Assembly: GCF_000971475.1 (NCBI RefSeq)
Contig: NZ_DF967585.1
Span: forward strand, 62,001 to 126,000
Direction: 5' to 3'
DNA: 64,000 nucleotides
Source: Sulfuricella sp. T08
GTDB lineage: Bacteria; Pseudomonadota; Gammaproteobacteria; Burkholderiales; Sulfuricellaceae
Shown here: positions 24,130 to 48,440 of the stretch, piece after piece
Position numbering within the stretch: the stretch's first letter is position 1
How the letters are laid out: every line of letters begins with the position of its first letter
Notes under the pieces: model-generated
Told to the model about the DNA's origin: nothing
Database searches by the model: none
Seen by the model: the letters and a program-made list of their open reading frames with translations, nothing else
Translations under genes and position numbers: made by a program

Positions 24130-24228
24130 AACCAGGCTTCACCACAGGCCAGCGATTTCTCTGAATCTGTGCTGAAAGCCAATCGCGAACCGGTTAATGG
24201 GCACAAGAAATTCAGAACGAATTCCAGG
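24130..24228 (+). pseudogene. Remnant shared with the region before the third SulP gene
   Basis: The frame here reads INQASPQASDFSESVLKANR then EPVNGHKKF. The same pattern recurs at 31584-31682 (QVSTQVSDFSEDVLRANH then ELVKGYKRLQNEF), also beside a SulP gene. The DNA matches too (AGCGATTTCTC in both). No credible start codon or ribosome-binding site is present. I do not recognise the family. It looks like the C-terminal end of a small helical protein once linked to SulP genes. Confidence 0.4.
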
Positions 24229-27917: not shown

Positions 27918-29291
27918 TCAAGAACCGTTTCCCTCCTCCATTTCATAAACCTTCAGCTTGCGCCACAGCGACACGCGGTTGATGCCGAGCATCTGAGCGG
28001 CAAACGTCTGATTCCCGCCCGCCTCGTTCAACACCCAACGGATATAAGCCTTTTCCTGCTCCTCAAGTGAGGGAATGCGCCCCTCCTTTTTCTTGAATGA
28101 GCGCGCGCTCAATTCCCGCAAATTGTCGGGCAGGTGAGCCACCTGGATGACATGGCCGGTGTTGATCGCCACCCCGCGCTCAATAACGTTTTCGAGTTCG
28201 CGCACATTGCCGGGGAAGTCGTGGCTTTCCAGGATGGCGATCGCCTCGGCCGAAATTTCAGTGACCTCCTTTTTCATCAGGGTGGCGAATTTTTTCAGGA
28301 AGAAGTAGCTGAGCAGCACCACGTCGCCGCCGCGTTCGCACAAGGGCGGAATATGCAGGTTCACGACATTGAGGCGGAAAAACAGGTCCTGTCGGAATGA
28401 CCCATCTTTGGTCACCTCCTGCATGTCCCGGTTGGTGGCGGCGATGTAGCGGGCATCCGCCTTCACTGGCGAGGTGCCACCCAGACGCAGCACCTCGCGT
28501 TCCTGGATTACGCGCAACAGCTTGACCTGCATCGCCGACGACATTTCGGTAATCTCATCGAGGAACAGCGTACCGCCCTCTGCCGACTCGATCAGCCCTT
28601 TCTTCAGCGTCAGCGCACCGGTGAACGCGCCCTTCTCGTGGCCGAACAACTCGTTCGACAGCAACTGCTCGCTGAACGCGCCACAGTTCACCGCCAGGAA
28701 CGGCCCGTCCGCCCGATTGCTGTTGTAGTGAAGATAGCGCGCGAACAGTTCCTTGCCGGTGCCGGACTCGCCGGTGATCAGCACGTTGCAGTCGGTCGGC
28801 GCCACCTGCCTGGCCATCTCCAGCAACTTCAGCATGCTCGGATCCTGGGTGATGATCTTGACCCGGCCTTCGTAGCTTTCGATCTGCTCACGCAGTTGGC
28901 GGTTCTCACGTTTCAGGCTGATTTTCTCCATCGCCTCACCAACCACCTGGCGCACCTCGTCGAGACGGAACGGCTTGGCAATATAATAAAACGCGCCTTG
29001 CTTCATGGCCTCCACCGCCGACTCCGGCGTCGCATAACCGGTAATCACGATCACCTCGGTTTCCGAGTTGCGCTCGCGGCACTTCTTCAACACCTGCATG
29101 CCGTCCACTTTTTCCATCTTGAGGTCGGTCAGCACCACATCGAATGACTGGCTCTCGATCAATACCAAGGCAGCCATACCGCTCTGGGCGCCGGTCACGT
29201 CATAGCCATCCTTTTTCAGGACGTGGACAAGGCTTTTCAGTGCAATCTTCTCGTCATCAACGATCAACAACTTTCCCTTACTTTGAATCAT
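27918..29291 (-). CDS. Sigma-54-dependent response regulator (NtrC family)
   Basis: A 457-residue three-domain activator. The receiver domain (1 to about 125) has VDDE and the phospho-acceptor D56 in VVLTDLKM. The AAA+ domain (about 140-370) has Walker A GESGTGKE, the sigma-54-contacting GAFTGA loop, Walker B GGTLFLDEI and an arginine-finger region. A FIS-type helix-turn-helix (QTFAAQMLGINRVSLWRKL) ends the protein. It is encoded 25 bases after the histidine kinase and upstream of a SulP gene. A -24/-12 promoter at 31049-31064, across the divergent intergenic region, is the obvious local target. I start at ATG 29291, just before the receiver domain. Confidence 0.95.
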   Translation of the reverse strand: MIQSKGKLLIVDDEKIALKSLVHVLKKDGYDVTGAQSGMAALVLIESQSFDVVLTDLKMEKVDGMQVLKKCRERNSETEVIVITGYATPESAVEAMKQGAFYYIAKPFRLDEVRQVVGEAMEKISLKRENRQLREQIESYEGRVKIITQDPSMLKLLEMARQVAPTDCNVLITGESGTGKELFARYLHYNSNRADGPFLAVNCGAFSEQLLSNELFGHEKGAFTGALTLKKGLIESAEGGTLFLDEITEMSSAMQVKLLRVIQEREVLRLGGTSPVKADARYIAATNRDMQEVTKDGSFRQDLFFRLNVVNLHIPPLCERGGDVVLLSYFFLKKFATLMKKEVTEISAEAIAILESHDFPGNVRELENVIERGVAINTGHVIQVAHLPDNLRELSARSFKKKEGRIPSLEEQEKAYIRWVLNEAGGNQTFAAQMLGINRVSLWRKLKVYEMEEGNGS

Positions 29292-29316
29292 GTTCCATTC
29301 TCTTCCATCAATAATC

Positions 29317-30822
29317 TTATTGCTGCGGCCCGTCAGCAGGTTCCAGCGGCAGCCGGATATGAAACACCGTACCGTGCCCGGGTTCACTATTTACCGAAAT
29401 GCTGCCGTTGTATTCCTCGACGATTTCATAAACGATGAACAGACCGAGCCCCATTCCCCGGCCTACGTCCTTGGTGGTAAAGAAGGGGTCGAAGATGCGC
29501 GGCAGGACGTCGGCTGGAATGCCTGGGCCACTGTCGCGAATTTCAATGTCGATTGCTTCCACTCCCGGATAACCCTTGCCGAGAAAGCGGGTGTCGTGCC
29601 CTTGTCCGGCCACGAAACTCTCTTTGGTCAGACCATGCCTGGCTGCCCCGATTCGAATCTCACCAGATTCGCCGGTCGCCTCCAGTGCATTCTTGATCAA
29701 ATTCAGGAACGCCTGCTCCAGCCTTCGCCGATCCGCCTGCAGCACGATGTCAGCAGGAATTTCGGTGACAATGCTAACGCCAGGCGGCGTTTCACCCTTG
29801 AGAAACAGCAAGACCTCTTCGAACAAAGCCGCAAGGCGCACCGTTTCCCGCTTGACCGGCTTGTCCCGCGCAAAATCCAGCAACGCCCGCACAATCTTCC
29901 GTGCCCGTTCCGTCTGCTCGTCGATCTGCTCCAGCAGTTCCTTACCCTGTTCCGGGCAGCACTCGCCGACTTCCTCCAGCAGAATCTGGCAGGACAGTGA
30001 AATATTCGACAGCGGGTTGTTCAGCTCATGCGCCACGCCAGCAAGCATGGTGCCAAGCGAGGCAAGCTTCTCCGAGCGTAGCAGCCTTTTCTGGCGCAGC
30101 TCGAGCTCGCCGATCATGTGATTGAACGCCTGGGTGATCGAAATGATTTCCCTATCCCCGGAAGGCACGACCAGCTTGTCCAGCCTGCCACTCGAAACCG
30201 CTTCTACGCAGCGATCCAGGTGCCTCAGGGGACGCGCCACCAGGCGCGACAGCATCCAGCCGATGGCGGCCATCAACAGGGAAATCAGCACAATGGAAAC
30301 CACCAGCGTAGTGCGAAACCGGTCCAGCGACTCGCGGATCATGCGCCGCTCGGCATCCGCCATCCCCTCGGCAATGGTCACGACATCCTTGCCCACCCTC
30401 CTGACTTGCACTTCCAGCAACGTCTTCTGGTGGGCATTAGCCAAACCTGCTCGCCCGTATTCAGCCATCAGGGCACGGTAAGCCCGCACATCGTTTAGCA
30501 GCCTTGCAATACGTGGCGCTGAGGCCAGCACGGAAAAATCCGCGGCATTGCCCTCAAGTAACTCCACCACCTTGGCGGCATAGCGGTTGCCTTCCTGCCA
30601 ATCGCTGTCCTGCCGGTAGAGAAAATAGTTCTTCTCGAAGCGACGAATTTCCAGCGTTGCATCGAACAATTCCGTGATGCGCCCCCCCAGTTTGATTTTC
30701 TGCTCGATCAAACGCAACTCGATATAGGTGAACAGGGACAGAGCTATGATCAGCAGGGCCATGGCGTAATAGCCCAGGTAACCAAGCGTGATTTTTTGCC
30801 GCAGCGAGGATTGTAGCTTCAT
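29317..30822 (-). CDS. Membrane sensor histidine kinase
   Basis: A 501-residue kinase of the NtrB-like class. It has a membrane helix at residues 12-33, a helical periplasmic sensor of about 135 residues, a second helix at 171-192, HAMP, a phosphorylation site H265 in GVAHELNNPLS, and the ATPase domain with NLIKNALEAT, DSGPGIP, FFTTKD and GMGLGLFI motifs. It is first in the unit kinase-activator-SulP. The sensor region has no recognisable small-ligand motif, so the signal is unknown; carbon or anion status is a guess from the neighbours. A strong inverted repeat sits 10 bases upstream of its start. Confidence 0.94.
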   Translation of the reverse strand: MKLQSSLRQKITLGYLGYYAMALLIIALSLFTYIELRLIEQKIKLGGRITELFDATLEIRRFEKNYFLYRQDSDWQEGNRYAAKVVELLEGNAADFSVLASAPRIARLLNDVRAYRALMAEYGRAGLANAHQKTLLEVQVRRVGKDVVTIAEGMADAERRMIRESLDRFRTTLVVSIVLISLLMAAIGWMLSRLVARPLRHLDRCVEAVSSGRLDKLVVPSGDREIISITQAFNHMIGELELRQKRLLRSEKLASLGTMLAGVAHELNNPLSNISLSCQILLEEVGECCPEQGKELLEQIDEQTERARKIVRALLDFARDKPVKRETVRLAALFEEVLLFLKGETPPGVSIVTEIPADIVLQADRRRLEQAFLNLIKNALEATGESGEIRIGAARHGLTKESFVAGQGHDTRFLGKGYPGVEAIDIEIRDSGPGIPADVLPRIFDPFFTTKDVGRGMGLGLFIVYEIVEEYNGSISVNSEPGHGTVFHIRLPLEPADGPQQ

Positions 30823-31048: not shown

Positions 31049-31064
31049 TGGCACAGATAATGCT
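31049..31064 (+). promoter_or_regulatory. Sigma-54 (-24/-12) promoter
   Basis: TGGCACAGATAATGCT carries the full TGGCAC -24 element and GC at -12 with the required GG-N10-GC spacing. Transcription would begin near 31075 and run into the small gene at 31119 and on toward the third SulP and Hyf-like genes. It sits opposite the NtrC-type activator operon. Confidence 0.75.
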
Positions 31065-31118
31065 CTATTTTCAAGCATGAAAACCGACAAGTATCGTAGA
31101 TACGGAAGGAATAAAATC

Positions 31119-31286
31119 ATGCACAATATAATTAACCAACTAAAAAACCTGTTCGCCGCTATGGCCTATGCCGAGGCCGGCGATCTGGATGCAGTCAAAC
31201 AAATACTTCAGGGGAACCCCAGCATACCAGCAAAAGAAAAAAGCTCTGAAACAACTGCGCGTCACCCTGCAGTCCCAGCTTTTTAA
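31119..31286 (+). CDS. Small protein downstream of the sigma-54 promoter
   Basis: A 55-residue frame starting at ATG 31119, with AAGGA nine bases upstream. The N-terminal 30 residues (MHNIINQLKNLFAAMAYAEA, then GDLDAVKQILQ) form a convincing amphipathic helix pair. The C-terminal part is low-complexity, and another frame (from about 31210: AYQQKKKALKQLRVTLQ) looks equally helical, so a frameshift may have truncated the protein. I do not recognise the family. Its place as the first gene after the sigma-54 promoter makes it worth noting as a possible regulator or partner of the transporter genes. Confidence 0.5.
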   Translation: MHNIINQLKNLFAAMAYAEAGDLDAVKQILQGNPSIPAKEKSSETTARHPAVPAF

Positions 31287-31559
31287 GGCCCAATCTGTAG
31301 ATTTACAGTTACTACAATCCACTGAAATTCGGCTCCAGGAACTTGGGCGCCGGCTCCGAAAAGCCCGGCACGTACAACGAACTCCCCGGCTTCACCCGGC
31401 CGTCGTAGCAGATCGCGATACACCCCATCAACGTGAGGCTTTACTGCGGACGGGCCACTCCGGGTAGCCTTGGTGTCGCCTATGTGGACCAGACCGCCAT
31501 CATCTGCGGCTACGATTCCCGAGCGCTTCTATAAAAATACCCTCTACCACCAATATTCA
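31287..31559. other. Degenerate region between the small gene and the SulP remnant
   Basis: Contains a coding-like patch on the minus strand, read from about 31437 to 31311 (LTLMGCIAICYDGRVKPGSS, VPGFSEPAPKFLEPNFSG), flanked by stops. No start codon or family could be assigned. It is probably gene debris inside the sigma-54 leader region. Confidence 0.35.
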
Positions 31560-31583
31560 CTCCTTGCCGATTTGTGCCGGATC

Positions 31584-31682
31584 GAGCAAGTTTCGACGCA
31601 AGTAAGCGATTTCTCCGAGGACGTGTTGCGCGCTAATCATGAATTGGTGAAGGGCTACAAAAGACTGCAAAATGAATTCTGA
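31584..31682 (+). pseudogene. Remnant paralogous to 24130-24228
   Basis: Reads RIEQVSTQVSDFSEDVLRAN then HELVKGYKRLQNEF and TGA. It parallels the fragment downstream of the first SulP gene. It ends about 150 bases before the third SulP start. The upstream frame has no ATG or ribosome-binding site, so it is likely the 3' end of a truncated small gene. Confidence 0.4.
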
Positions 31683-31830
31683 TTCGCCCGACAAATGCCG
31701 TCAAAATCCAATTAATAAGGCCATAAAGCATTCCTATTCCTAATCCCTCTCCAGCCTGATATTATTGGACTCTAAAACAAGACCTCCATGGCGGAATATC
31801 TTTCCGCACTAAAAATATGATGAGTCAGGG

Positions 31831-33993
31831 ATGGGCAATATGAATCAACAAGTAGCGCGTTTTTTTCCGTTTCTGCGCTGGTTCCCACTGCGCGGTGAGA
31901 ACATCAAGGCCGACCTGATCGCCGGCATCACCGTTGCACTGGTGCTGATTCCCCAGTCCATGGCCTACGCCCAGCTCGCCGGCCTGCCTCCCTACTACGG
32001 ACTTTACGCAGCTTTCCTGCCCGGCGTCATCGCCGCCCTGTGGGGCTCGTCAGCGCAACTGGCCACCGGCCCGGTTGCGGTGGTCTCGCTGCTGACAGCA
32101 TCCGCTCTTGCTCCGCTGGCCGCCTCCGGCTCCAGCCAGTTCATCGCGCTGGCGATCATGATGGCTCTGATGGTCGGCATCATCCAGCTCTCCCTGGGAG
32201 TGTTCAAACTCGGGGTGGTGGTGAATTTTCTTTCCCACCCTGTCATCGTCGGCTTCACCAATGCTGCGGCCATCATCATCGGCCTTTCCCAGCTCAACAA
32301 GCTGTTCGGCGTATCGATGGGGCGCAGCGAACATTTCATCCAGGATATCTGGGGCGTGCTGCAGCAGGTCGGCGACACCCATCTCCCGACGTTGCTAATG
32401 GGCGTCTCGGCCTTCGCCATCATGTGGGGGCTAAAAAAATTCGCTCCCAAGATGCCCGGCGTATTGATCGCTGTTGCCCTCACCACCATCGTCAGCTGGT
32501 CGATCGGCTTCGAACACAACAGCAATGGCAAGGTCGAGGAGATCATGGATGCAGACGTTAAAACCTTGGCCAGTGAATTCGCCCAGACTGAAACCAAGAT
32601 CGACGAACTGAACAACAAGATCAGCGCCAAATCAGCCGAACTCAAGCAGCATCAAAAGAGCCATGAAGGCAGCTCGCAGCGCACCGCCGCGCTGAACTAC
32701 GAAATCGAGCTGCTCAAGCTGGAACACAAGGATACGGAAGGCGAAAACCGCAAGCTCGCCCGCTCCTTGCGCAAGTTCATTTTCGAGCAAGTACCCACAG
32801 CCGATGGCCAAGCCGCCAGGCTTTACCTGGTCGGCCAGGTGCCTCAGGGCGAGAAGTCCGACGGCTACCGCTGGCGCATCAAGAAAGTAAGCAAGGGCGA
32901 ACTCAAGCTGGTCGGTGGCGGTGAGGTAGTGGGTTCCATCCCCGCTGGCCTTCCCAAACTGGACCTGCCCAAGTTCAGCTGGGACATGATGGTGACCTTG
33001 TTTTCCGGGGCACTGGTGATTTCCCTGGTAGGTTTCATGGAAGCCATTTCCATTGCCAAAGCGATGGCCGCCAAGACCAAGGATCGCATCGACCCGAACA
33101 AGGAACTGATCGGCCAGGGCATCGGCAATATTGTCGGCAGCTTCAGTCAAGCCTTCCCGACCAGTGGCTCATTCTCCCGTTCGGCGGTTAACCTCAACGC
33201 CGGCGCCAGAACCGGCATGTCCTCGGTGTTTGCCGGTGCAATCGTGCTGATCACCCTGCTGTTCCTCACCCCGCTGCTCTACCACCTGCCCCAGGCAGTG
33301 CTGGCCGCGGTGATCATGATGGCGGTGATCGGCCTGGTCAATTTCAAGGCGATCAAACATGCCTGGCACACCCACAAGCACGACGGCATCGCCTCGGCCG
33401 TGACTTTTGTCGCCACCCTGGCTTTCGCACCTCACCTTGACAACGGCATCATGGTCGGTGCCGGCTTGGCCATCATCCTCTACCTCTACCGCACCATGTC
33501 GCCGCGCGTCGCCATCCTTGGACGCGCTCAAGATGGCACACTGCGCGACTCTAAAGTACATAACCTGCCGGTCAGCGATTACATCATCGCCATCCGCTAC
33601 GACGGTTCCCTCTACTTCGCCAACGTACCCTATTTCGAAGACACTATCCTGGAAGCGGTATCCAACAGCCCCTGCGCCAAGCACCTGCTGATCGTGTCGG
33701 ATGGCATTAATCAGCTCGACGCCTCGGGTGATGAAGTCATCCACCACATGGTGGAAAGGCTACGTTCCAACGGCATCCGGGTGGTTTTCAGCGGCCTCAA
33801 GAAACAGGTGATCGACGTCATGCGCCATTCCGGCCTGTTCGATTTCATCGGCCAGGAAAACATTTATCCCGACGAGGACAAGGCGCTGGATTCAATTTAT
33901 GCCGAGGTCCTCGAAACCGATCCCAATGCCCAGTGCCGCCTGATGAAGGGCGGCCACATTGGCGGTGCCGATGGGGTGAAAACCTGGCTATAA
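31831..33993 (+). CDS. SulP family transporter with a 140-residue helical insert
   Basis: A 720-residue SulP permease, about 120 longer than its relatives here. The core is standard: LIPQSMAYAQLAGLPPYYGL, EAISIAKAMAAKTKDRIDPN, and a C-terminal STAS domain (about 585-690; LLIVSDGINQLDASGDE). At residues 229-368 a charged insert breaks a loop that is normally short. It contains a coiled-coil-like stretch (TKIDELNNKISAKSAELKQH) and a beta-rich part, then rejoins at GSIPAGLPKLDLPKF. It lacks the Cys tail of the other two SulPs. It is 34 bases upstream of the Hyf-like operon, so co-transcription is likely. A bicarbonate substrate is inferred from context. Confidence 0.9.
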   Translation: MGNMNQQVARFFPFLRWFPLRGENIKADLIAGITVALVLIPQSMAYAQLAGLPPYYGLYAAFLPGVIAALWGSSAQLATGPVAVVSLLTASALAPLAASGSSQFIALAIMMALMVGIIQLSLGVFKLGVVVNFLSHPVIVGFTNAAAIIIGLSQLNKLFGVSMGRSEHFIQDIWGVLQQVGDTHLPTLLMGVSAFAIMWGLKKFAPKMPGVLIAVALTTIVSWSIGFEHNSNGKVEEIMDADVKTLASEFAQTETKIDELNNKISAKSAELKQHQKSHEGSSQRTAALNYEIELLKLEHKDTEGENRKLARSLRKFIFEQVPTADGQAARLYLVGQVPQGEKSDGYRWRIKKVSKGELKLVGGGEVVGSIPAGLPKLDLPKFSWDMMVTLFSGALVISLVGFMEAISIAKAMAAKTKDRIDPNKELIGQGIGNIVGSFSQAFPTSGSFSRSAVNLNAGARTGMSSVFAGAIVLITLLFLTPLLYHLPQAVLAAVIMMAVIGLVNFKAIKHAWHTHKHDGIASAVTFVATLAFAPHLDNGIMVGAGLAIILYLYRTMSPRVAILGRAQDGTLRDSKVHNLPVSDYIIAIRYDGSLYFANVPYFEDTILEAVSNSPCAKHLLIVSDGINQLDASGDEVIHHMVERLRSNGIRVVFSGLKKQVIDVMRHSGLFDFIGQENIYPDEDKALDSIYAEVLETDPNAQCRLMKGGHIGGADGVKTWL

Positions 33994-34027
33994 TGCGCGT
34001 CAATAACAAGATGCTGGAGAACCACTC

Positions 34028-36040
34028 GTGATATTTGCTTCAACCCTGCTGCCCATCGACGTCACCTTTGGTGTCATCGTCTATTGGTTGCTACTGGGCT
34101 TGGCAGGCCTGCTGCTGCAAAACACCCGCGCCATCACGCAGTATATTTTCCCCGCCGGCGCCCTGGGTGCACTGATCCTGGCGGCTGCCGCTTTGGGCAG
34201 CTTGGGTGGCGCCGTCAATGTTGCTGTGCTACCGCTCGGCCTGCCCGACCTGCCCTTCCATCTGCGTCTGGATGCTCTGTCCGCATTTTTCCTGCTCCTG
34301 CTCGGCGCTGCCAGCATCGGCATTTCGCTTTATTCGGCTGGCTATTTCCGCGACATGCCAGGAAACACCCTCGGGCTGCTGTGCTTCGAATACCACGTCT
34401 TCCTCGCCAGCATGGCCCTGGTTCTGATGGCGGATGATGCTTATATGTTCATGGTGGCATGGGAAACCATGGCACTGTCTTCCTATTTCCTGGTCACCAC
34501 CGACCACAAGGTGCCGGAAATCCGCCAGGCAGGCTTCATCTACCTGCTGGTCGCCCACGTCGGCGCAATCGCCATCCTGATGTGCTTTGGCGTGATGCAG
34601 GGCGGCCACGGAGATTACACCTTCGCCACCATGCGCTCAGCGCACCTGACCGAATTCTGGTCCAGCGTCACCTTCCTGCTCGCCCTGTTCGGCTTCGGCG
34701 CAAAGGCCGGCATCCTGCCCCTCCACATCTGGCTGCCGGAAGCGCACCCAGCCGCTCCTTCCCCGGTTTCGGCGCTGATGAGCGGCATCATGCTGAAAAC
34801 CGCAATTTACGGCATCCTGCGTGTTTCTCTCGACCTTCTCGATGCGCACATCTGGTGGTGGGGCGTACTGGCCTTGACGCTGGGCCTGATCACCGCGCTG
34901 TTCGGCGTGATCTTCGCCGCCGTGCAGACGGACATGAAGCGCCTGCTCGCCTACTCCTCGATCGAGAACATCGGCATTATTCTGGTTGGCATCGGCCTCG
35001 CCCTCACCTTTCACGCCTTCGAAAAGGACGCACTGGCCGCACTGGCGCTCACCGCGACCTTGTATCACGCCCTCAACCACGCATTCATGAAGGGTCTTCT
35101 GTTCATCGGCACCGGTTCGGTGCTGCACGCCACCGGGGAGCGGAATCTTGGCAAACTGGGCGGGCTCATCCATCACATGCCGAAACTGGCGCTGCTGATG
35201 CTGGTAGGCGCCCTCGCGATTGCCGGGCTGCCCCCGCTCAACGGCTTTGTATCCGAATGGCTGCTGCTGCAGGCTTTCCTGCTCTCGCCGGGGCTACCCC
35301 ATTCCTATCTCAACATGCTGATTCCGGTCGCTGCGGCCGCGCTGGTCCTGGCTTCGGCGCTGTCCGGCTATGTCATGGTCAAATTCTACGGGGTGATTTT
35401 CCTTGGGCAGCCGCGCGAAAAGACCCTGCACGAGGCCCACGACATTGGCATCTTTGAACGACTGGGGCTGACCTGGCTTGCACTGGGCTGCATCCTGCTG
35501 GGGGTGTTCCCGGTATTCGTCATCCTGCTTATCGACCCAGTCACCCAAATGCTGCTCGGCCAAACCCTTGGAAGCACCGCCGCGCAGACCGGCTGGCTGT
35601 TGCTCACTCCGATCCAGCCCGAGCGTGCCAGTTACAGCCCGCTAATCCTGTTCCTGATCATTGTCGTCGGCGTTATTTTCACGATATTCCTAGTAAAAAA
35701 ATTCTATCACGGCCGTTTGCGCCGCGGCCCAGCCTGGGACTGCGGCTTTCCTGAGCAGACGGCACGGATGCAGGATACCGCCGAAGGTTTCGGCCAGCCT
35801 ATCCGCCAGATTTTCGAGCCCTTTCTCGGGGTGACCCGCATCGTCCCATCCCCTTTCGACAAAAAACCCCACTATCACGGTGAATCACGCGACCGCCTGT
35901 GGAACCTGCTATACCTGCCGATCGCCAGAGTCACCGAAAAAATTTCCGTCATGGTTGGCAAGTTGCAGCACGGCCGCATCCATGTTTACCTGCTATATAG
36001 TTTTGTCACCCTGCTCGCACTACTGGCGTTTATCCGATGA
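34028..36040 (+). CDS. hyfB: Hyf-like/complex-I-like antiporter subunit (HyfB/NuoL family)
   Basis: A 670-residue polytopic subunit of the NuoL/HyfB family, which pumps protons or sodium in energy-converting complexes. Key residues are kept: E146 in MVAWETMALSSYF, K226 in FGFGAKAGILPLHIWLPEAH, K257, and MKRLLAYSSIENIG. The C-terminal extension ends in a further membrane helix. Translation starts at GTG 34028 with GGAG upstream. It overlaps the next gene by four bases. It opens an operon B-C-E-F-G-I in the order of hydrogenase-4, but without the HyfA and HyfH ferredoxin subunits. Confidence 0.92.
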   Translation: MIFASTLLPIDVTFGVIVYWLLLGLAGLLLQNTRAITQYIFPAGALGALILAAAALGSLGGAVNVAVLPLGLPDLPFHLRLDALSAFFLLLLGAASIGISLYSAGYFRDMPGNTLGLLCFEYHVFLASMALVLMADDAYMFMVAWETMALSSYFLVTTDHKVPEIRQAGFIYLLVAHVGAIAILMCFGVMQGGHGDYTFATMRSAHLTEFWSSVTFLLALFGFGAKAGILPLHIWLPEAHPAAPSPVSALMSGIMLKTAIYGILRVSLDLLDAHIWWWGVLALTLGLITALFGVIFAAVQTDMKRLLAYSSIENIGIILVGIGLALTFHAFEKDALAALALTATLYHALNHAFMKGLLFIGTGSVLHATGERNLGKLGGLIHHMPKLALLMLVGALAIAGLPPLNGFVSEWLLLQAFLLSPGLPHSYLNMLIPVAAAALVLASALSGYVMVKFYGVIFLGQPREKTLHEAHDIGIFERLGLTWLALGCILLGVFPVFVILLIDPVTQMLLGQTLGSTAAQTGWLLLTPIQPERASYSPLILFLIIVVGVIFTIFLVKKFYHGRLRRGPAWDCGFPEQTARMQDTAEGFGQPIRQIFEPFLGVTRIVPSPFDKKPHYHGESRDRLWNLLYLPIARVTEKISVMVGKLQHGRIHVYLLYSFVTLLALLAFIR

Positions 36041-36978
36041 ACGGCATACTTTTACAGCTCTTTCAGGACACGCTGGTAGTGTTGATCGCACCCCTGCTTC
36101 TAGGCTGGGTCAATCAGTGCCGAGCCTGGCTGCAGAATCGCAGCGGCCCTGGCGTGTTGCGGCCTTACCTGAACATGGTGAAGCTGTTTCACAAAGATGC
36201 GGTGCTGGCGCACAATGCCTCGCCGATGTTCCGCTTTCACCCTTATATCCTGTTTGCCTGTATGTGGCTGGCAGCATCCCTGGTGCCAGTAATCGCGACC
36301 GACCTGCCGCTCTCCCCGGCAGTGGACGTGATCGCGCTGGTTGGCATTTTCGCCCTGGCACGCGTCTTCGTCTCCTTGGCGGCCATGGATATCGGCACCT
36401 CATTCGGCACGCTCGGCGCACGACGCGAAATGCTGGTCGGCTTCCTTGCCGAGCCGGCACTGCTGATGGTGTTTTTCACCGCTGCCGCAATCAGCCACTC
36501 CACCTCGCTTACCACCATCGTCGAGACCCTCGCACACAAGCAGTTCATCATCCATCCCAGCCTGGCCTTCGCCGCCGTCGCCTTCATCATGGTGCTGCTG
36601 GCAGAAAACGCGCGCATCCCGGTGGACAACCCCTCCACCCACCTCGAACTGACCATGATCCACGAAGCCATGATTCTGGAATACTCCGCCCGCCACCTTG
36701 CCCTGATCGAATGGGCGAGCGCACTCAAGCTGCTCGCCTTCACCACCATCGGCTTCGCCCTGTTCATGCCATGGGGCATCGCCGAGGCCGGCAACTGGGG
36801 CGCGCTACCGCTTGCCCTTGCCGCCCTGTTCATCAAATTAACGGTAGCGGGAGCCGGCCTGGCGCTGCTCGAGACCATCTCCGCCAAGATGCGCATTTTC
36901 CGCGTACCGGAATTCATGGGTACTGCCTTTCTGCTGGCCGTTTTGGGTCTGCTCGTCCATTTCCTGCATGGAAACTGA
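36037..36978 (+). CDS. hyfC: Hyf-like membrane anchor subunit (HyfC/NuoH family)
   Basis: The 313-residue membrane protein corresponds to NuoH/HyfC, the subunit that links the soluble arm to the pump modules. Marks are LQNRSGPGVLRPY near the N-terminus, DIGTSFGTLGARREMLVGFL, and LLAENARIPVDNPSTHLELT, the conserved loop that faces the quinone-like cavity. There are about eight hydrophobic segments. It overlaps hyfB by four bases and the next gene by eleven, as expected for strict co-translation. Nothing is missing relative to family members. Confidence 0.93.
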   Translation: MNGILLQLFQDTLVVLIAPLLLGWVNQCRAWLQNRSGPGVLRPYLNMVKLFHKDAVLAHNASPMFRFHPYILFACMWLAASLVPVIATDLPLSPAVDVIALVGIFALARVFVSLAAMDIGTSFGTLGARREMLVGFLAEPALLMVFFTAAAISHSTSLTTIVETLAHKQFIIHPSLAFAAVAFIMVLLAENARIPVDNPSTHLELTMIHEAMILEYSARHLALIEWASALKLLAFTTIGFALFMPWGIAEAGNWGALPLALAALFIKLTVAGAGLALLETISAKMRIFRVPEFMGTAFLLAVLGLLVHFLHGN

Positions 36979-37639
36979 GATGGAAAATTTCTCCGGACAA
37001 CTCATCAACCTGTTTGCAGCACTGCTGCTGCTGATTTCCTTTGGCATGCTGTCACAGCGCCGGGTGTTGTCACTGATCAACCTGTTTGCGCTGCAGGGGT
37101 TAATGCTCACCATCAGCACCGTGATCGTGGCCTATTCCTCGCACCAGCATCACCTTTACTACTCGGCGGCGCTGACACTGGTACTGAAAGTGATTATCCT
37201 GCCGTGGATCCTGCACCGCCTGATGCGCAAACTGAACGTCAAATGGGACATCGAGACGTTGTTCAACATCCCGACCACCATGCTGGTCGGCATCGCCCTG
37301 GTGGTATTCGCCTTCAACCTGGCGGCGCCGATCTCCATGATGGGTGGAGCCATCACCAAGAGCACCCTGGGGATTGCCATGGCCAGCGTACTGCTCTCTT
37401 TCCTGATGATGATCACGCGCAGCAAGGCGGTGCCGCAGGTAATCGGCTTTCTTGCCATGGAAAACGGCCTGTTTTTCGCCGCTACCAGCGCCACTTACGG
37501 CATGCCTATGGTGGTGGAACTGGGGATTGCACTCGACGTGCTGGTGGGCATGTTCATCCTGGGCATCTTCTTCTTCCAGATCCGGGAAACCTTCGACAGC
37601 CTGGACTTGAAGCACATGGAAAAACTCAAGGAAGATTGA
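36968..37639 (+). CDS. hyfE: Hyf-like membrane subunit (HyfE, NuoK-like)
   Basis: The 223-residue membrane protein matches HyfE, which resembles NuoK with extra helices. It contains LSLINLFALQGLMLTIS in the N-terminal part and GFLAMENGLFFAATSA with a membrane Glu in the second half, then a C-terminal helix and a charged tail. Its start lies within the end of hyfC; an in-frame ATG at 36980 is a possible alternative. It is followed two bases later by hyfF. Confidence 0.88.
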   Translation: METEMENFSGQLINLFAALLLLISFGMLSQRRVLSLINLFALQGLMLTISTVIVAYSSHQHHLYYSAALTLVLKVIILPWILHRLMRKLNVKWDIETLFNIPTTMLVGIALVVFAFNLAAPISMMGGAITKSTLGIAMASVLLSFLMMITRSKAVPQVIGFLAMENGLFFAATSATYGMPMVVELGIALDVLVGMFILGIFFFQIRETFDSLDLKHMEKLKED

Positions 37640-37640
37640 C

Positions 37641-39089
37641 GTGGAAATTCTCTGGATACTGGTGATTCCCCTGATCGGCGGCCTGTTGCTGGCGCTGTTC
37701 GGCGGCCAGCGCTTCGCGCCCGAACTGAACTCCATCATGAGCTTCGGCACCTTCGTAGCCTCCGCATTCCTCACCGTCAGGGTCATCACCGATGGCCCGA
37801 TGACCGCACTGAACGAGCAGTTCTTCGTCGATTCCTTCAACGTCTTCCTGGTCGCCCTTACCGCTTTCGTTGCCTTCACTACCTCGCTATTCTCGCGCCC
37901 CTACATGCGCATCGAGCAAGTACACGGCAAGCTCACCATCAACATGCTGCGGCTCTACCACAGCATGTACCAGCTGTTTACCTTCACCATGCTGCTGGCA
38001 CTGCTCACCAACAACCTCGGCATCATGTGGGTGGCGATGGAAGCAGCAACCCTGACTACCGTGCTGCTGGTCTCGCTCTACCGCACTCCGGCCAGCCTGG
38101 AAGCGGCATGGAAATATTTCATCCTGTGCGGCGTCGGCATCGCCCAGGCACTGTTCGGCACCATCCTGCTCTATTTTGCGGCGGAAAAAGTGCTCGGTGC
38201 AGGCGGTACGGCGCTGCTATGGACACACCTTGACGCCGTCAAAACCCAGTTGGAACCGACCGTGCTGTCACTAGCATTTGTCTTCCTGCTAGTTGGCTAT
38301 GGCACCAAAGTTGGTTTGGCACCGCTGCACAACTGGCTGCCCGACGCACATGCCGAAGGCCCGACACCGGTTTCCGCCGTGCTTTCCGGCCTGCTGCTCA
38401 ATGTTGCGCTATACGCCGTGGTTCGCTCCAAAGTACTGGTAGATGGCGCACTCGGCAGCCATCTCGCCGGCAACCTGATGATGGGCTTCGGATTGCTCAG
38501 TGTAGTCATGGCCGCGTTTTTTCTGTCGCGCCAGAAGGACGTCAAGCGCATGTTCGCCTATTCCTCGATCGAGCACATGGGGCTGATGACTTTTGCCTTC
38601 GGCATGGGCGGCCCGGTAGCGACCTTCGCCGGCATGCTGCACATGACCGTGCACTCCCTCACCAAATCGGCGATCTTTTTTGCCGTCGGTCATGCCACGC
38701 AGAAATCCGGCACCCAGCTAATGGAAAATATCCGCGGCCTGATCACGACCAACCCCACTATAGGCTGGGGCTTGGCGATCGGCTCCCTGGCCATACTCGG
38801 CATGCCGCCATTCGGCGTGTTCGCCAGCGAGTTCCTGATCATAACCACCGCCATGCACGCCTACCCATGGACCACGCCGTTCCTGCTCGCCGCGCTGGGC
38901 GTAGCATTCGCCGCGATATTCAGCCGGGTACAGAGCATGGTCTTCGGCGAAACCACCGACGAACGCCTGCCCCACCCGCCCGCGCTGGTTCCGGTGTTCG
39001 TGCATCTGGGATTGGTACTGCTACTCGGGCTGTATATCCCGCCCTACCTGGCAGACTGGTATCGCCAGGCGGCTGCGTTGATCGGATAA
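37641..39089 (+). CDS. hyfF: Hyf-like antiporter subunit (HyfF/HyfD, NuoN/M family)
   Basis: The 482-residue antiporter-like subunit has the expected Glu in IMWVAMEAATLTTVLLVSLY, Lys in GYGTKVGLAPLHNWLPDAHA and KRMFAYSSIEHMGLMTF. The HxxxHSLTKSAIFFAVGH segment is typical of HyfF. Together with hyfB this gives the complex two pump-like subunits. Translation begins at GTG 37641; the ribosome-binding site (GGAAG) lies in the end of hyfE. Operon spacing is minimal on both sides. Confidence 0.92.
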   Translation: MEILWILVIPLIGGLLLALFGGQRFAPELNSIMSFGTFVASAFLTVRVITDGPMTALNEQFFVDSFNVFLVALTAFVAFTTSLFSRPYMRIEQVHGKLTINMLRLYHSMYQLFTFTMLLALLTNNLGIMWVAMEAATLTTVLLVSLYRTPASLEAAWKYFILCGVGIAQALFGTILLYFAAEKVLGAGGTALLWTHLDAVKTQLEPTVLSLAFVFLLVGYGTKVGLAPLHNWLPDAHAEGPTPVSAVLSGLLLNVALYAVVRSKVLVDGALGSHLAGNLMMGFGLLSVVMAAFFLSRQKDVKRMFAYSSIEHMGLMTFAFGMGGPVATFAGMLHMTVHSLTKSAIFFAVGHATQKSGTQLMENIRGLITTNPTIGWGLAIGSLAILGMPPFGVFASEFLIITTAMHAYPWTTPFLLAALGVAFAAIFSRVQSMVFGETTDERLPHPPALVPVFVHLGLVLLLGLYIPPYLADWYRQAAALIG

Positions 39090-39095
39090 AGAATC

Positions 39096-40643
39096 ATGAG
39101 ACTCGACGAATTCCCGACAAAATTTCCCAAGCTACCCGGCGCCATGCCGATCTGGCACGGCACGGTCGATGCTGAAGAATTCCGCAACCTGTGCGAGCAG
39201 GTCGCGCGCGGCGGCGGCAAGCTGGTCGCGCTGTGGGGCAGCGACGAACTGGCGCATGATGCCGGCTATGCCCTGCATGTCTCGCTGGTCACCGCGCTGG
39301 GCATGCTGTGCCTGACCCTGCCTCTTTCCGCCGAGCGCCCTTCATATCCCAGGATCAGTGACCTGTTCCCTTGCGCCAACCGCATGCAGCGCACCGCTGC
39401 TGACATGCTCGGCCTTCATGCCAGCGGCAGCAACGACCGCCGCAAATGGTTGCGCCACAAATCCTGGCCAAATACTGTACACCCGCTGCGCAAGAACTTT
39501 GATGGCAGCACGGTTTTCCCCACGGAAACGGATGGCTACCAGTTCGTGACGGTTACCGGCGACGGCGTCCATGAAATCCCGGTCGGCCCGGTCCATGCCG
39601 GCACCATCGAACCAGGCCACTTCCGTTTCTCGATCATTGGCGAGCGCGTGCTGCGACTGGAAGAGCGCCTTGGCTACAAGCACAAGGGCATCGAAAAGCT
39701 TTTCGAGCGCATGAACCTGGAACAGGGCGCGAAGCTTGCCGGGCGGGTCAGCGGCGACAGTACCGTAGCCTATGCCTGGGCTTACGCCCAAGCGGTGGAA
39801 AGCGTTACCGGCACCACGCCATCGCCTCGCGCCTTGGCGTTGCGCGCTGTGCTACTCGAGCTGGAACGCATCCACAACCACCTCGGCGACCTCGGCTACC
39901 TGGGCAACGACGTGGCGCTGGCATTCGGCTTCGCCCAGTTCTGGATACTCAAGGAAGATGTGCTTCGCTTGAACGGCGAACTGTTCGGCCACCGCTACCT
40001 GATGGACAAAGTGGTACCCGGCGGCGTCGCCAGCGACCTTGACGACAAGGGTTGCGAACGTATCCGACTGGTGTTCAGGCATCTCGAACATGGGATCAAG
40101 ATCCTGAAAGACATTTATGACGAACACGCCGGAGCCCAGGATCGCTTCCTCACTACCGGCAAAGTCTCGCCAGACTTGGCTGCGCAACTGGGATTAACCG
40201 GTTTGCCTGGACGGGCCAGCGGCCAAGCCTGGGACCTGCGCGCACAGTTCCCCTGCGCACCCTATGATAGTCTCGATGTGCGCATGGCCACTCATCGCAA
40301 TGGCGACGTTGCGGCCCGGGTCACGGTACGTTTCGAAGAAGTACTGGAATCGATGCGCTTGATCCGCCTGATCATTGATCAGCTACCGGCAGGGGAGCTC
40401 CGCACAACCGTCGGCGATGCGCCGGAAAACGCGTTGGGGCTGGGCTGGGTGGAAGGCTGGCGCGGTGAGATTCTGATTGCGCTGCATACCGGCAAGAACA
40501 ACGCGATCCATCGCCTGCACCCGCATGATCCATCATGGCAGAACTGGCCTGTTCTGGAACACGCGATTATCGGCAACATCGTGCCGGATTTCCCGCTCAT
40601 CAACAAATCGTTCAACCTGAGCTATACCGGGGTCGATTTATGA
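39096..40643 (+). CDS. hyfG: Hyf-like large subunit (NuoC-NuoD fusion) lacking NiFe cysteines
   Basis: The 515-residue protein fuses a NuoC-like domain (1 to about 155) to a NuoD/hydrogenase-like large-subunit domain. The latter is recognisable from VGPVHAGTIEPGHFRFSIIG, ERLGYKHKGIEKLFE and LLELERIHNHLGDLGYLGND. In hydrogenases the first NiFe motif RxCGxC should follow; here it is R217-V-S-G-D-S. The C-terminal DPCxxC motif is replaced by SFNLSYTGVDL. All four NiFe-binding cysteines are absent, so it cannot be an ordinary hydrogenase. It fits the 'energy-converting hydrogenase-related' (Ehr) group described between complex I and group 4 hydrogenases. Confidence 0.92.
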   Translation: MRLDEFPTKFPKLPGAMPIWHGTVDAEEFRNLCEQVARGGGKLVALWGSDELAHDAGYALHVSLVTALGMLCLTLPLSAERPSYPRISDLFPCANRMQRTAADMLGLHASGSNDRRKWLRHKSWPNTVHPLRKNFDGSTVFPTETDGYQFVTVTGDGVHEIPVGPVHAGTIEPGHFRFSIIGERVLRLEERLGYKHKGIEKLFERMNLEQGAKLAGRVSGDSTVAYAWAYAQAVESVTGTTPSPRALALRAVLLELERIHNHLGDLGYLGNDVALAFGFAQFWILKEDVLRLNGELFGHRYLMDKVVPGGVASDLDDKGCERIRLVFRHLEHGIKILKDIYDEHAGAQDRFLTTGKVSPDLAAQLGLTGLPGRASGQAWDLRAQFPCAPYDSLDVRMATHRNGDVAARVTVRFEEVLESMRLIRLIIDQLPAGELRTTVGDAPENALGLGWVEGWRGEILIALHTGKNNAIHRLHPHDPSWQNWPVLEHAIIGNIVPDFPLINKSFNLSYTGVDL

Positions 40644-40745
40644 GCGTTAGCTGTCAGCTCTGAGCCTTCAGCTAACCCCCCACGCGGCAAGCCGCGCACA
40701 AAACCAAACTGACAGCTGATAGCTGATTACTGAAAGCTGGAAATC
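40644..40745. repeat. Palindromic repeat element inside the Hyf-like operon
   Basis: The gap between hyfG and hyfI consists of reiterated AGCTnTCAG-like words on both flanks around a perfect hairpin CGCGGC-AA-GCCGCG (40683-40696). Its inverted form resembles 51855-51935 behind cbbO (AGCTTTCAGT, GCCGCG, AGCTnAAnGCT in the same order). Likely a dispersed repeat; it may also fold in the mRNA and adjust expression of the last gene. Confidence 0.55.
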
Positions 40746-41279
40746 ATGTACCAGATCATCAAACAAATACTGAACACCGGCATCAAGACCGAAGCGCCTC
40801 CTCAGCCCGACGAGGCGCTACGCGTGGAAGCCCAGAACCTGCAGGAAGAAATCCTGCGGCACCTTGGCAGTGCACTCGCCATCCGCCACGTCGACGCGGG
40901 CTCCTGCAACGGTTGCGAACTGGAAATCCACGCCCTCAACAACGCCTACTACAACATCGAAGGCTTGGGCATCCATTTTGTCGCCAGCCCACGACATGCC
41001 GACATGCTGCTGGTGACCGGACCGGTATCTCGCCACATGGAAATTGCGCTCAAGCGCACCTACGATGCAACCCCTGACCCCAAGCTGGTGGTCGCCGTCG
41101 GCGACTGTGGCTGCGACGGCGGCATCTTCGGCGAGAGCTACGCCAGCTGCGGAAAAATCTCCAACGTGATCCCTGTGGACATCGCGGTACCCGGCTGCCC
41201 ACCCACACCGATTGCTCTGTTGCAGGGCATCCTCACCGCCGTAACCGGCGGCGTCAAAAAGGAAAAAGACTCAAAATAG
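40746..41279 (+). CDS. hyfI: Hyf-like iron-sulfur subunit (HyfI/NuoB family)
   Basis: The 177-residue small subunit keeps the ligands for the proximal [4Fe-4S] cluster: C54 and C57 in GSCNGCELE, C121 in VGDCGCDGG and C151 in VPGCPPTP. The spacing is that of group 4 hydrogenase small subunits and NuoB. So the complex still has a buried cluster next to the site where the large subunit has lost NiFe. An extra N-terminal helix of about 40 residues precedes the core. It is separated from hyfG by a 100-base repeat element but on the same strand. A carbonic anhydrase gene converges on it from the other side. Confidence 0.92.
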   Translation: MYQIIKQILNTGIKTEAPPQPDEALRVEAQNLQEEILRHLGSALAIRHVDAGSCNGCELEIHALNNAYYNIEGLGIHFVASPRHADMLLVTGPVSRHMEIALKRTYDATPDPKLVVAVGDCGCDGGIFGESYASCGKISNVIPVDIAVPGCPPTPIALLQGILTAVTGGVKKEKDSK

Positions 41280-41308: not shown

Positions 41309-42370
41309 TCAATCAGCACTAACCAGTTCCAGTTCGCGCGAACGCCAGTCGAGCACCGCAGTGCGTTCATACATCCGGCCGGCGAGATCCTTGAATTCCC
41401 TGCGTATCACCTCGGCGGCAAACTGTGACAGAAAGCGCGACTTGAGTTCGGCACGCGCCCGGTCCACGCCGATTTCCTTGTAAGGTACCGAAGCCAGCAG
41501 CAGGAAGCCGTCGTCCGGAATGCGACCGGCCGCCATGTTGCTCTGGATGATGCCCGCCGCCTTGCGGATCGGATCAGCCAGGTCCGGGCTGTAGGGGCCG
41601 ATGATCAGGGCGAGGTTGGGTATATGCAGGAAATCGAAACCGCGTCCCAGGCAGATCATCCATTCGCGGTGCTCGATATCCAGGGTGCGCTGGATGTGCC
41701 GGATTTCGGTGACGTGCTGCATGTTGCCGATGAGCAGCGGCAGAAGATCGCTGCTCACCCGCTGCGGCATATCCGGGAACAGGGCTTCGAGACGCCGTCC
41801 CAAGGTGTTTTCGTCTTTTTCAGTCAGCTTCGCCACCTCCAGGGTATCGCCGTTGTTGCCGTGCAGAATAATGGCGTCCTCGTCGGTTTCGAATCCGCAG
41901 ACGATCGGATATACGGTAGCGTGGCCGGTGCCGAAGACATGTTCGACCTGCGCCTTGATCGCGCAGGTATGCGCTATTGCCGCCTCGGTGTCATAGCAAA
42001 AACCGGCGCAGCCGCGATGGGGATCGCCCTTGGAAAAGTGGTAGGTGATCAGCATCAGCACCCGGCGGCCGGTCGTGACGATGTCCTGTACGTGGTTGGC
42101 CAGCACCTCGCCGAGATGCGGCCAGCCCAGGTTGAACATGCCGCCGAGGTTGCGGATCGGCATGATGATGCCGGGCGGCGTATTGGTGGCGACGGGGATA
42201 TTGATGCGCCCGTCCATGCACTTGAGCACCACGATATCGGTCGGGTGTTCAGCCAGATAGCGCTCCCGTGCGAGATATTGTTCGGGGCTGCAGAAAGATG
42301 ACGAGTGCCTGCTGGCATGGCCGATCAGCCATTCGATACGTTGCTGGATCGGTTTGCTATGGATATCCAT
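41309..42370 (-). CDS. Long beta-carbonic anhydrase-like protein (353 aa)
   Basis: The protein has the beta-carbonic anhydrase zinc signature C51-x-D53-x-R55 (KCMDGRI), a central PIRNLGG motif and H118-x-x-C121 (DPHRGCAGF), but is much longer than the usual 200-220 residues. The C-terminal 200 residues form an unfamiliar domain with LGRGFDFLHIPNLALIIGPY and EIGVDRARAELKSRFLSQF. I therefore expect CO2/bicarbonate chemistry plus an extra binding role. It converges on the Hyf-like operon. A decayed copy of its C-terminus lies at 45207-45424 behind cbbR. GGGAG precedes the start at 42370. Confidence 0.8.
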   Translation of the reverse strand: MDIHSKPIQQRIEWLIGHASRHSSSFCSPEQYLARERYLAEHPTDIVVLKCMDGRINIPVATNTPPGIIMPIRNLGGMFNLGWPHLGEVLANHVQDIVTTGRRVLMLITYHFSKGDPHRGCAGFCYDTEAAIAHTCAIKAQVEHVFGTGHATVYPIVCGFETDEDAIILHGNNGDTLEVAKLTEKDENTLGRRLEALFPDMPQRVSSDLLPLLIGNMQHVTEIRHIQRTLDIEHREWMICLGRGFDFLHIPNLALIIGPYSPDLADPIRKAAGIIQSNMAAGRIPDDGFLLLASVPYKEIGVDRARAELKSRFLSQFAAEVIRREFKDLAGRMYERTAVLDWRSRELELVSAD

Positions 42371-45086: not shown

Positions 45087-45206
45087 AGGAAATTTTATCT
45101 GCGCAAAAAAAGAAGGGGCAAATGTATGAAAATATTCGGATATTGCATATGTTATCAGGGTAATCGATGAATTCTACGCTCATCATAAGCGATTTTTGCT
45201 CTTAAT

Positions 45207-45424
45207 CTGCAGTGACCCTTTCCAGATCTCTGGAGTGCCAGTTAAGCACCGCTTTGCATGAACATCTTGCACAACAGCTCCGGGTGCTCGGCGCATATCA
45301 CTTAGACCACAAACCGGGAAAGGAAGCGCGACTTGTGCTTTGCACGCGCACGGCCCACACCGATCTCGACATCAGGAGCGGATGATTCAGACTGAATTGG
45401 CGCCAGAATTAGCGCGATCCCTCT
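45207..45424 (-). pseudogene. Decayed second copy of the long carbonic anhydrase (C-terminus)
   Basis: In one minus-strand frame the sequence reads GIALILAPIQSES, EIGVGRARAKHKSRFLSRF, TAA (45302-45304), VICAEHPELLCKMFMQSGA, TAA, LALQRS. It aligns in order with the C-terminal part of the 41309-42370 product (NLALIIGPYSPDL, EIGVDRARAELKSRFLSQF, VIRREFKDLAGRMYERTAV, LDWRS), with an internal deletion and two stop codons. The catalytic domain is gone. The copy directly follows cbbR, and the cbbR C-terminus runs into it in another frame. Confidence 0.75.
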
Positions 45425-47988: not shown

Positions 47989-48065
47989 TACGGTGAGGGG
48001 TGAGGGGTAATGGGTGAGGCGAAAAAGCCAACCCGCCTCACGCCTCCCGTCTCACCCCTAACGTG
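47989..48065. repeat. GGGTGAG-reiterated inverted repeat between cbbL and cbbS
   Basis: Left arm ACGGTGAGGGGTGAGGGGTA continues as ATGGGTGAGG; right arm has CGCCTCACGCCTCCCGTCTC followed by ACCCCTAACGTG. Each arm is itself made of short reiterated units. It fills the cbbL-cbbS gap and could form a strong mRNA hairpin. A similar element lies between cbbQ and cbbO. Confidence 0.6.
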
Positions 48066-48083
48066 ATACTTAAGGAGCAAATC

Positions 48084-48440
48084 ATGAGTGAAGTAATGGA
48101 TTACAAATCGCGCCTGTCTGACCCTGCCAGCCGCAAGTTCGAGACCTTCTCCTACTTGCCGGCCATGACTGCGGACGAGATCAAGACGCAAGTGGAATAC
48201 CTGGTTTCCAAAGGCTGGAACCCGGCTATCGAGCACATCGAGCCGGAATACCTGATGGATTCCTACTGGTATATGTGGAAACTGCCGATGTTCGGCGAAA
48301 CCGACGTGACCAAGGTGCTGGCTGAAGCGGAAGCCTGTCACAAGGCCAACCCCAACAACCACGTGCGTCTGATTGGTTACAACAACTTCAACCAGTCACA
48401 GGGCGCGGCGATGGTGATTTTCCGCGGCAAGACCGTTTGA
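48084..48440 (+). CDS. cbbS: RuBisCO small subunit
   Basis: The 118-residue form I small subunit has the family marks: [20 protein letters not shown], the [20 protein letters not shown] stretch, [11 protein letters not shown] and a C-terminal [18 protein letters not shown]. It caps the L8 core in the L8S8 enzyme. I start at ATG 48084 with AAGGAG upstream; a longer frame from 48063 includes that site and is unlikely. It is followed by a strong hairpin terminator at 48450, which may set a lower level for cbbQ and cbbO. Confidence 0.97.

Follow-up and report, generated by a model that had tools for sequence, protein, structure and literature searches.

In a 64,000-nucleotide stretch of the Sulfuricella sp. 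T08 genome (contig NZ_DF967585.1, positions 62,001 to 126,000; hereafter the window, with coordinates counted from its first letter), an operon on the plus strand at 31049-41279 joins a SulP-family transporter to six genes, hyfBCEFGI, that resemble hydrogenase 4 subunits. We consider it reasonably likely, with a probability of about 0.68, that this locus is a regulated module with which an autotroph lacking carboxysome genes accumulates inorganic carbon (Ci), and in which the Hyf complex does the job performed in other bacteria by the DAB system. This reading is built on the gene content of the locus, the loss of the [NiFe] site from the complex, the presence of DAB in the same genomic slot in relatives, the mutual exclusion of Hyf and DabA, and the carbonic anhydrase (CA) context.

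Results

DAB in the position of hyf

Comparisons were made in 200 genomes of the order, an even sample of a larger group. A genome was scored as Hyf positive when its best HyfG match had an E value below 1e-100, and 55 of the 200 qualified. The hyf loci examined were those of the 54 other Hyf genomes and the window itself, as the locus of the source genome (G000); some were shortened by contig ends, hyf was split or cut by contig ends in G011, G126, and G131, among others, and eight loci (four from RuBisCO-positive and four from RuBisCO-negative genomes) had no more than 1.5 kb upstream of hyfB or lacked hyfB. The source genome, of 3.4 Mb and rated 100% complete, gave no match to DabA (PF10070), the bacterial microcompartment (BMC) shell family, or CsoS2.

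The entire gene order, namely, histidine kinase, NtrC-type regulator, SulP2, gamma-carbonic anhydrase (gammaCA), SulP, and hyfBCEFGI, was seen at a single locus, in G035, and other relatives carry parts of it. In G062 and G182, which belong to the family of the source genome and have no Hyf orthologue, the succession SulP2-gammaCA-SulP leads instead into DabB, DabA, and three NuoL-like genes; between G062 and G035, SulP is 71%, gammaCA 77%, and SulP2 66% identical. G088 has the order histidine kinase, NtrC-type regulator, SulP, DAB, and a CsoSCA-like anhydrase, and G043 has the first four of these elements. DAB thus occupies the hyf slot at four of the seven DabA loci inspected, in two families, one of them the window's own; the seven were picked by kinship or RuBisCO content from the 40 DabA genomes, and the exchange was not seen in G111, G063, or G170, the last two of which lie on short contigs. 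Both systems have antiporter-like membrane subunits and follow the same SulP in the operon, and two genomes also show the same regulators with DAB; they differ in that DAB/DAC systems contain DabA, whereas the window has none and encodes six Hyf subunits, among them a hydrophilic arm of NuoCD/NuoB-like type.

Hyf and DabA also tend to exclude each other. Among the 54 RuBisCO-positive genomes without CsoS2, Hyf was present in 28 and DabA in 7, and none had both (P = 0.0037; P = 0.012 by within-family permutation), and across all 200 genomes, they were found together in 9 against the 12.1 expected within families (P = 0.034). A separate point in favor of a Ci role is an Accumulibacter metagenome-assembled genome (MAG) in which hyf adjoins dabA. 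Because DAB stands in the same slot, we assign its job to HyfBCEFGI, which on these comparisons is probably an energy-coupled Ci-uptake machine, like DAB in its working and built from an Ehr complex; it would be the third solution to this task at the protein level.

Subunits of the complex and loss of the nickel ligands

The antiporter-like subunits HyfB (34028-36040, NuoL/HycC-like) and HyfF (37641-39089, NuoN/M-like) score above the NCBIfam cut-offs. HyfC (36037-36978), HyfE (36968-37639), HyfG (39096-40643), and HyfI (40746-41279) match NuoH-, HyfE-, NuoD-, and NuoB-like models, respectively, each below the model cut-off (97 against 136 bits for HyfE), and HyfC, HyfG, and HyfI exceed the Pfam cut-offs. 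Among solved structures, subunits of formate hydrogenlyase (7z0s) and MBH (6cfw) rank as the top two relatives of HyfG, HyfI, and HyfB, and the closest HyfG relatives among the named genomes, at 82 to 83% identity, are from Gallionella and Gallionellales MAGs. Individual loci are given L numbers; the named hyf loci are the 80 top-ranking ones among at least 581 relatives, with flanks of at most 10 kb, many of them short, and open reading frames (ORFs) predicted by a codon-model caller.

HyfG, a fused NuoCD/HycE-like protein, aligns with HycE of formate hydrogenlyase over about 440 residues, and the HycE motifs RVCGICG and DPCYSC are replaced by RVSGDST (with SGDS at the ligand positions) and NLSYTG. 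The Ni-ligand positions are free of cysteine in all 14 aligned HyfG sequences, taken from many more that were found: residues 219 and 509 are always Ser, residue 222 is Ser in 11 and Ala in 3, and residue 512 is Gly in 13. Since no cysteine stands at any of the four positions in any of the 14, we regard the loss of the Ni ligands as settled and conserved. HyfI, which is NuoB/HycG-like, retains Cys 54, 57, 121, and 151 at the cluster-motif positions of HycG. HyfA, HyfD, HyfH, and HyfJ were not among the genes annotated between 26 and 52 kb, no search having been made elsewhere in the genome, and hydrogenase-like genes are present elsewhere in the source genome.

By its subunit anatomy and its loss of the Ni motifs, HyfBCEFGI is an Ehr-type complex; it is a member of neither DAB nor hydrogenase 4. 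It differs from group 4 [NiFe] hydrogenases in the four missing Ni-ligating cysteines of HyfG and in having no ferredoxin-like electron-input subunit such as HyfA or HyfH in the operon, and it shares with other Ehr complexes the group-4-hydrogenase-like subunits without NiFe-ligating motifs. What sets it apart from those complexes is its tie to SulP, carbonic anhydrases, and RuBisCO, with no formate dehydrogenase among the annotated neighbors. The function of Ehr is called unknown in a passage of a paper on comammox Nitrospira (PMC10284858), and a passage of another paper suspects it of coupling redox reactions to ion translocation (PMC6349859). Five HyfG histidines that are absent from HycE, H121, H159, H344, H475, and H477, are invariant in the 14 aligned sequences; the structural model of HyfG has a mean predicted local distance difference test (pLDDT) score of 76, with residues 145-188 and 481-515 below 50, and a clustering of these histidines cannot be read from it. 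Two tandem hyf-like operons occur in L060, L131 (G132), L036, and L063, in which the second-copy HyfG is about 44 to 46% identical (L060 and L131) or 32 to 38% identical (L036 and L063).

Two families of carbonic anhydrase

Converging on hyfI is a gene on the minus strand (41309-42370) for a CsoSCA-like beta-carbonic anhydrase of 353 residues, which scores above the Pfam CsoSCA_cat cut-off (30.8 versus 21.5 bits) and far below that of the CsoSCA equivalog (39 versus 241 bits). C51-x-D53-x-R55, H111, and C121 are invariant in all nine aligned orthologues, out of 11 found (the split copy of G106 and that of G088 were omitted), and we take these residues to be the counterparts of the zinc ligands and Asp-Arg pair of CsoSCA. 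CsoSCA structures rank first for the predicted model (Foldseek E = 8e-15), whose mean pLDDT is 73, with active-site residues 53-55 and 116-125 below 50. The protein thus shares fold and catalytic residues with CsoSCA and differs from it in length, in its equivalog score, and in belonging to a genome without shell proteins. At high score, orthologues were found in 10 of the 200 genomes, 5 of which have no Hyf (G062, G182, G043, G088, and G017); it is therefore a Ci-linked protein rather than a Hyf subunit. In G167, its gene lies between cbbO and hyf. Beside cbbR lies what is left of another CsoSCA-like anhydrase, a C-terminal piece (approximately 45200-45400, minus strand).

The second family, gammaCA, survives in the window as decayed sequence. 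Between the small gene and SulP, at 31483-31687 (plus strand), an N-terminal scrap and residues 130-186 can be recognized (tblastn E = 8e-10 for the C-terminal part), and a second 3' remnant, a DNA match of 79% over 113 columns, lies behind the third SulP (24113-24223, plus strand). Intact gammaCA genes stand between the regulators and hyfB or SulP in L112, L126, L118, L127, and L139, and in G043, the gene is inside a cbbLSQ-gammaCA-cbbO operon. H72, H89, H94, and Q66, presumably the three His and the Gln of the gamma-CA site, are kept in all seven aligned sequences, taken from many more that were found, and the best-matching model is CcmM (130 bits against a cut-off of 550).

SulP and Chr transporters

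The SulP of the operon (31831-33993, plus strand) has a STAS domain and an insert at residues ~228 to 366; it exceeds the TIGR00815 cut-off (445 versus 380 bits) and falls well below that of the BicA equivalog (156.6 versus 880 bits). BicA and carboxysome-adjacent SulPs, as described in part of PMC12628692, likewise combine SulP and STAS in a Ci context; the window protein differs from BicA in its long insert and its score, and its Ci role would follow from context. The insert is not specific to Hyf loci, since it was found at 39 places in 33 of the 200 genomes. Nineteen of the 39 have Hyf, DabA, CsoS2, RuBisCO, gammaCA, or the CsoSCA-like CA at a distance of no more than 20 kb, and in four genomes, CsoS2 has SulPs carrying a related insert, five in all, no farther than 12 kb away. 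Eight other insert-SulP loci (L195 to L202) showed no Hyf, DabA, RuBisCO, or gammaCA within the stretch fetched, and in seven of the eight, SulP2 lay within 6 kb of the insert-bearing SulP.

The SulPs near hyf appear to belong to three subfamilies. SulP2 (26056-27861, minus strand) has orthologues that are found in relatives as partners of gammaCA, SulP, or hyfB, and a third SulP (22264-24063, plus strand) is 70% identical to it. A Chr-family transporter with chrB, at 19769-22143 (minus strand), recurs beside the Ci cluster in L183, L184, and L175, and Chr without chrB is found beside it in L126/L181, L122, and L198. Both the SulP and Chr families include bicarbonate transporters, one Chr protein being reported as a bicarbonate carrier in a section of PMC10880623, and bicarbonate-carrying SulP and Sbt proteins are stated in part of PMC12628692 to require Na+.

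Distribution with RuBisCO and neighboring genes

For RuBisCO counts, matches that started near residue 94 with 28 to 31% identity were treated as form IV and left uncounted, and matches of 34 to 37% over residues ~26 to 425 were treated as form II, no model of its own being used for that form; the latter adjoin cbbQ/cbbO in G014 and a Thiomonas MAG. RuBisCO is present in 36 of the 55 Hyf genomes and in 38 of the 145 others (P = 5e-7), an association that the original prediction had anticipated. The corresponding figures for DabA, which belongs to an established Ci system and was used as a yardstick, are 24/40 and 50/160 (P = 0.0016), and by family they are 17/25 versus 10/26 for Hyf (P = 0.05) and 15/24 versus 12/27 for DabA (P = 0.26). 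Plain co-occurrence was dropped as a strong argument, as it vanishes within families.

The neighbors of hyf are more informative. SulP, gammaCA, the CsoSCA-like CA, or DabA lies within 8 kb of hyf in 16 of the 36 RuBisCO-positive genomes and in none of the 19 RuBisCO-negative ones (P = 0.00035; 6/16 versus 0/9 by families; 15/32 versus 0/15, with P = 0.0008, when the eight short loci are removed). These 16 are all that there are among the 55 Hyf genomes, and SulP, which had been predicted to be the partner of the complex, was accordingly rejected as an obligate one. In a quickly built HyfF tree of 123 rows without bootstraps, a Ci label on 25 rows, one of them doubtful (that of L110 is based on a 22% SulP match and is to be discounted), needs 12 changes, of which supported branches impose at least 7; shuffles give 23.0. 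The arrangements vary, with gammaCA before hyfB in the presence or absence of SulP and the CsoSCA-like CA behind hyfI; because both the SulP subfamilies and the CA placements differ, the Ci neighbors are not one inherited block.

Among the 80 named loci, which rank highest of at least 581 relatives, SulP is near hyf in 8, plus one doubtful case, and these include a Thiobacillus, a Sulfuritalea, and two Rhodocyclaceae MAGs; a RuBisCO large subunit occurs in one locus (Thiomonas) and DabA in one (Accumulibacter). At the Thiomonas locus (L082:3-10899), a divergent hyfBCEFGI leads directly into a RuBisCO gene on the same strand (33% identical to form I), cbbQ, and cbbO.

Operon front and flanking genes

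The sigma-54 (-24/-12) promoter-like site at 31049-31063 (plus strand; TGGCAC-N5-ATGC) has 9 of 10 consensus letters and the exact GG/GC spacing. Since the window holds nine sites of equal quality, and simple shuffles have 3.3 on average, the site is weak when taken alone; a like site lies directly upstream of the operon in L112, L141, L142, L049, and L050, representing five genomes, among 24 other loci scanned. A small gene follows, as predicted, at a different position: the 99-residue ORF at 31168 was dropped because it has no convincing match in relatives, and a 55-residue frame at 31119-31286 (plus strand) is conserved instead in L112 (45%) and L126 (48%). Where the window has this gene, a family of ~130 residues without a Pfam match precedes SulP in L180:5614-5994, L049:2203-2595, L141:2026-2406, and L050:1599-1937, sitting behind the sigma-54 site in the last three. 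A conserved pair, comprising a protein of ~88 residues and a TauE/SafE protein, adjoins SulP/gammaCA genes at L179:4154-6352 (with Usp domains), L112:3435-4888, L177:18949-19998, and L182:4469-6664; in L112, it is placed between the sigma-54 site and gammaCA.

The sigma-54 site, small gene, SulP, and hyfBCEFGI run on one strand, as foreseen, with the decayed gammaCA among them. Divergent from them, on the other strand, are the sensor histidine kinase (29317-30822), the NtrC-type sigma-54 response regulator (27918-29387), and SulP2. Past the converging anhydrase, likewise correctly predicted, come a GGDEF/EAL protein and then cbbR (45387-46394, minus strand) and, on the plus strand, cbbL for a form I large subunit (46562-47983), cbbS (48063-48440; a weak small-subunit-like match to the CcmM model, with orthologues that follow cbbL in relatives), cbbQ (48563-49393), and cbbO (49481-51820; a VWA-domain protein named by position). 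With the chrBA pair, third SulP, and second gammaCA scrap at 19.8 to 24.2 kb, the cluster is wider than originally drawn, taking in the gammaCA remnants, both regulators, SulP2, the third SulP, and the Chr transporter. About 13 kb downstream of hyfI is a further beta-carbonic-anhydrase-like gene below its NCBIfam cut-off (54092-54730), and about 15 kb downstream is a gene for phosphoenolpyruvate carboxylase (56541-59384).

Discussion

The role in energy-coupled Ci uptake proposed in the original prediction is favored by DAB in the hyf slot, the exclusion between Hyf and DabA, the presence of two CA families, and the restriction of Ci neighbors to RuBisCO-positive genomes. We infer the substrate, direction, energy source, catalytic site, and CO2 response of the system as follows. 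The two-component system and sigma-54 probably switch on the operon; HyfB and HyfF would use the proton-motive force, perhaps together with quinone redox chemistry via HyfG and HyfI, for one-way hydration of CO2 at the membrane; the SulP proteins would add bicarbonate import; and the CsoSCA-like anhydrase would return bicarbonate to CO2 for a nonencapsulated RuBisCO. A report on the DAB2 structure (PMC13144422) proposes that its NuoL-like subunit links one-way CO2 hydration to the flow of protons. Cyanobacterial NDH-1 CO2-uptake complexes also offer a parallel, being complex-I-like machines that drive vectorial CO2 hydration (in part after PMC10880623), and differ from the window's complex, which has a Hyf-type subunit set. 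The hydration site could be the emptied NiFe pocket or a recruited CA, or there may be none if the complex supplies only a Na+/H+ gradient.

Known energy-coupled CO2-hydrating complexes include cyanobacterial NDH-1MS and DAB. It is a tentative suggestion, and one that we hold to be doubtful, that this Ehr clade evolved independently into a third such class. CO2 would then be hydrated in the NuoD-like subunit, at the emptied [NiFe] pocket, perhaps with the HyfG-specific histidines, and a former hydrogenase would have become a vectorial carbonic anhydrase.

Several findings weigh against assigning a Ci role to the complex. No CO2-hydrating site was recognized in any Hyf subunit, and the evidence for exchange with DAB is limited to the order sample, in which seven DabA loci were examined and four were swapped. 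Coexistence of Hyf and DabA in 9 of the 200 genomes, 7 of them with CsoS2, runs counter to exclusion, and RuBisCO is missing from 19 of the 55 Hyf genomes; a within-family shuffle of Hyf and RuBisCO gave 36 joint occurrences against 34.8 expected (P = 0.24). No Ci gene lies within 8 kb at 39 of the 55 hyf loci, including 20 of the 36 in RuBisCO-positive genomes, and most of the 80 named hyf loci, the top-ranking ones of at least 581 relatives, show none. The CsoSCA-like CA lies in two frames in G106 and was not found in G014. Neither the source genome nor G106 has an intact gammaCA at E <= 1e-40, the window copy being decayed, and the module can therefore work without gammaCA. A SulP and a Chr protein from Thiomicrospira pelophila did not rescue CA-deficient Escherichia coli, according to part of PMC12628692; family membership is therefore no proof of Ci transport.

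Some of these findings would suit a general redox- or ion-translocating Ehr complex, linked to quinone or ferredoxin, that travels as a passenger in Ci islands in which SulP and the CAs are the Ci machinery. The 19 Hyf genomes without RuBisCO, the 39 loci without a Ci gene nearby, the occurrence of the SulP2-SulP pair without hyf or DAB in the vicinity, and the retained cluster cysteines of HyfI all speak for such a complex, which we nevertheless consider unlikely: the repeated appearance of Ci genes beside hyf, the DAB exchange, and the exclusion of DabA would all be unexpected, and because 16 of the 40 DabA genomes also lack RuBisCO, its absence does not exclude a Ci role. Quite unlikely, in our judgment, is a version in which the Ehr complex moves Na+ or H+ and so energizes Na+-coupled bicarbonate import by SulP without touching CO2, although its odds overlap with those of the preferred reading, with which it shares the Ci role. 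The Mrp/NuoL-like character of HyfB and HyfF, the Na+ requirement of bicarbonate SulP and Sbt proteins, and an Mrp-like operon situated past a cbbO fragment in L049, a Thiobacillus MAG, favor an ion pump, whereas in L112, gammaCA rather than SulP precedes hyfB and the operon contains no SulP, and the DAB in the same slot is reported in PMC13144422 to be a CO2-hydrating complex.

The recurrence together of SulP2, SulP, Chr-family, and TauE/SafE-Usp proteins could also mark an island in which SulP, Chr, and TauE/SafE move sulfate or sulfite in a lithotroph, powered by the complex. This is improbable, given that two CA families, DAB, and RuBisCO share these contexts, that bicarbonate transporters are known in the SulP and Chr families (PMC10880623, in part), and that SulPs with the related insert lie near CsoS2. 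A working or recently broken formate hydrogenlyase or hydrogenase 4, as the NCBIfam names of the subunits would imply, is scarcely credible for a complex with no Ni-ligand cysteine in any aligned HyfG and no HyfA, HyfH, HyfD, or HyfJ among the genes annotated between 26 and 52 kb, in a genome with hydrogenase-like genes elsewhere.

A Ci-accumulating role for HyfBCEFGI thus remains our preferred reading, and we found no description of the SulP-hyfBCEFGI combination in the open-license PMC literature, as the original prediction had supposed. With it, Ehr complexes acquire a function that can be tested, and a candidate answer emerges to the question of how lithoautotrophs without carboxysomes, such as Gallionellaceae, Thiobacillus, and relatives of Sulfuritalea, feed RuBisCO at low CO2. 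If it is true, Ci uptake would have drawn on relatives of complex I on at least three occasions, and the complex would be a new transferable pump for the engineering of carbon fixation.

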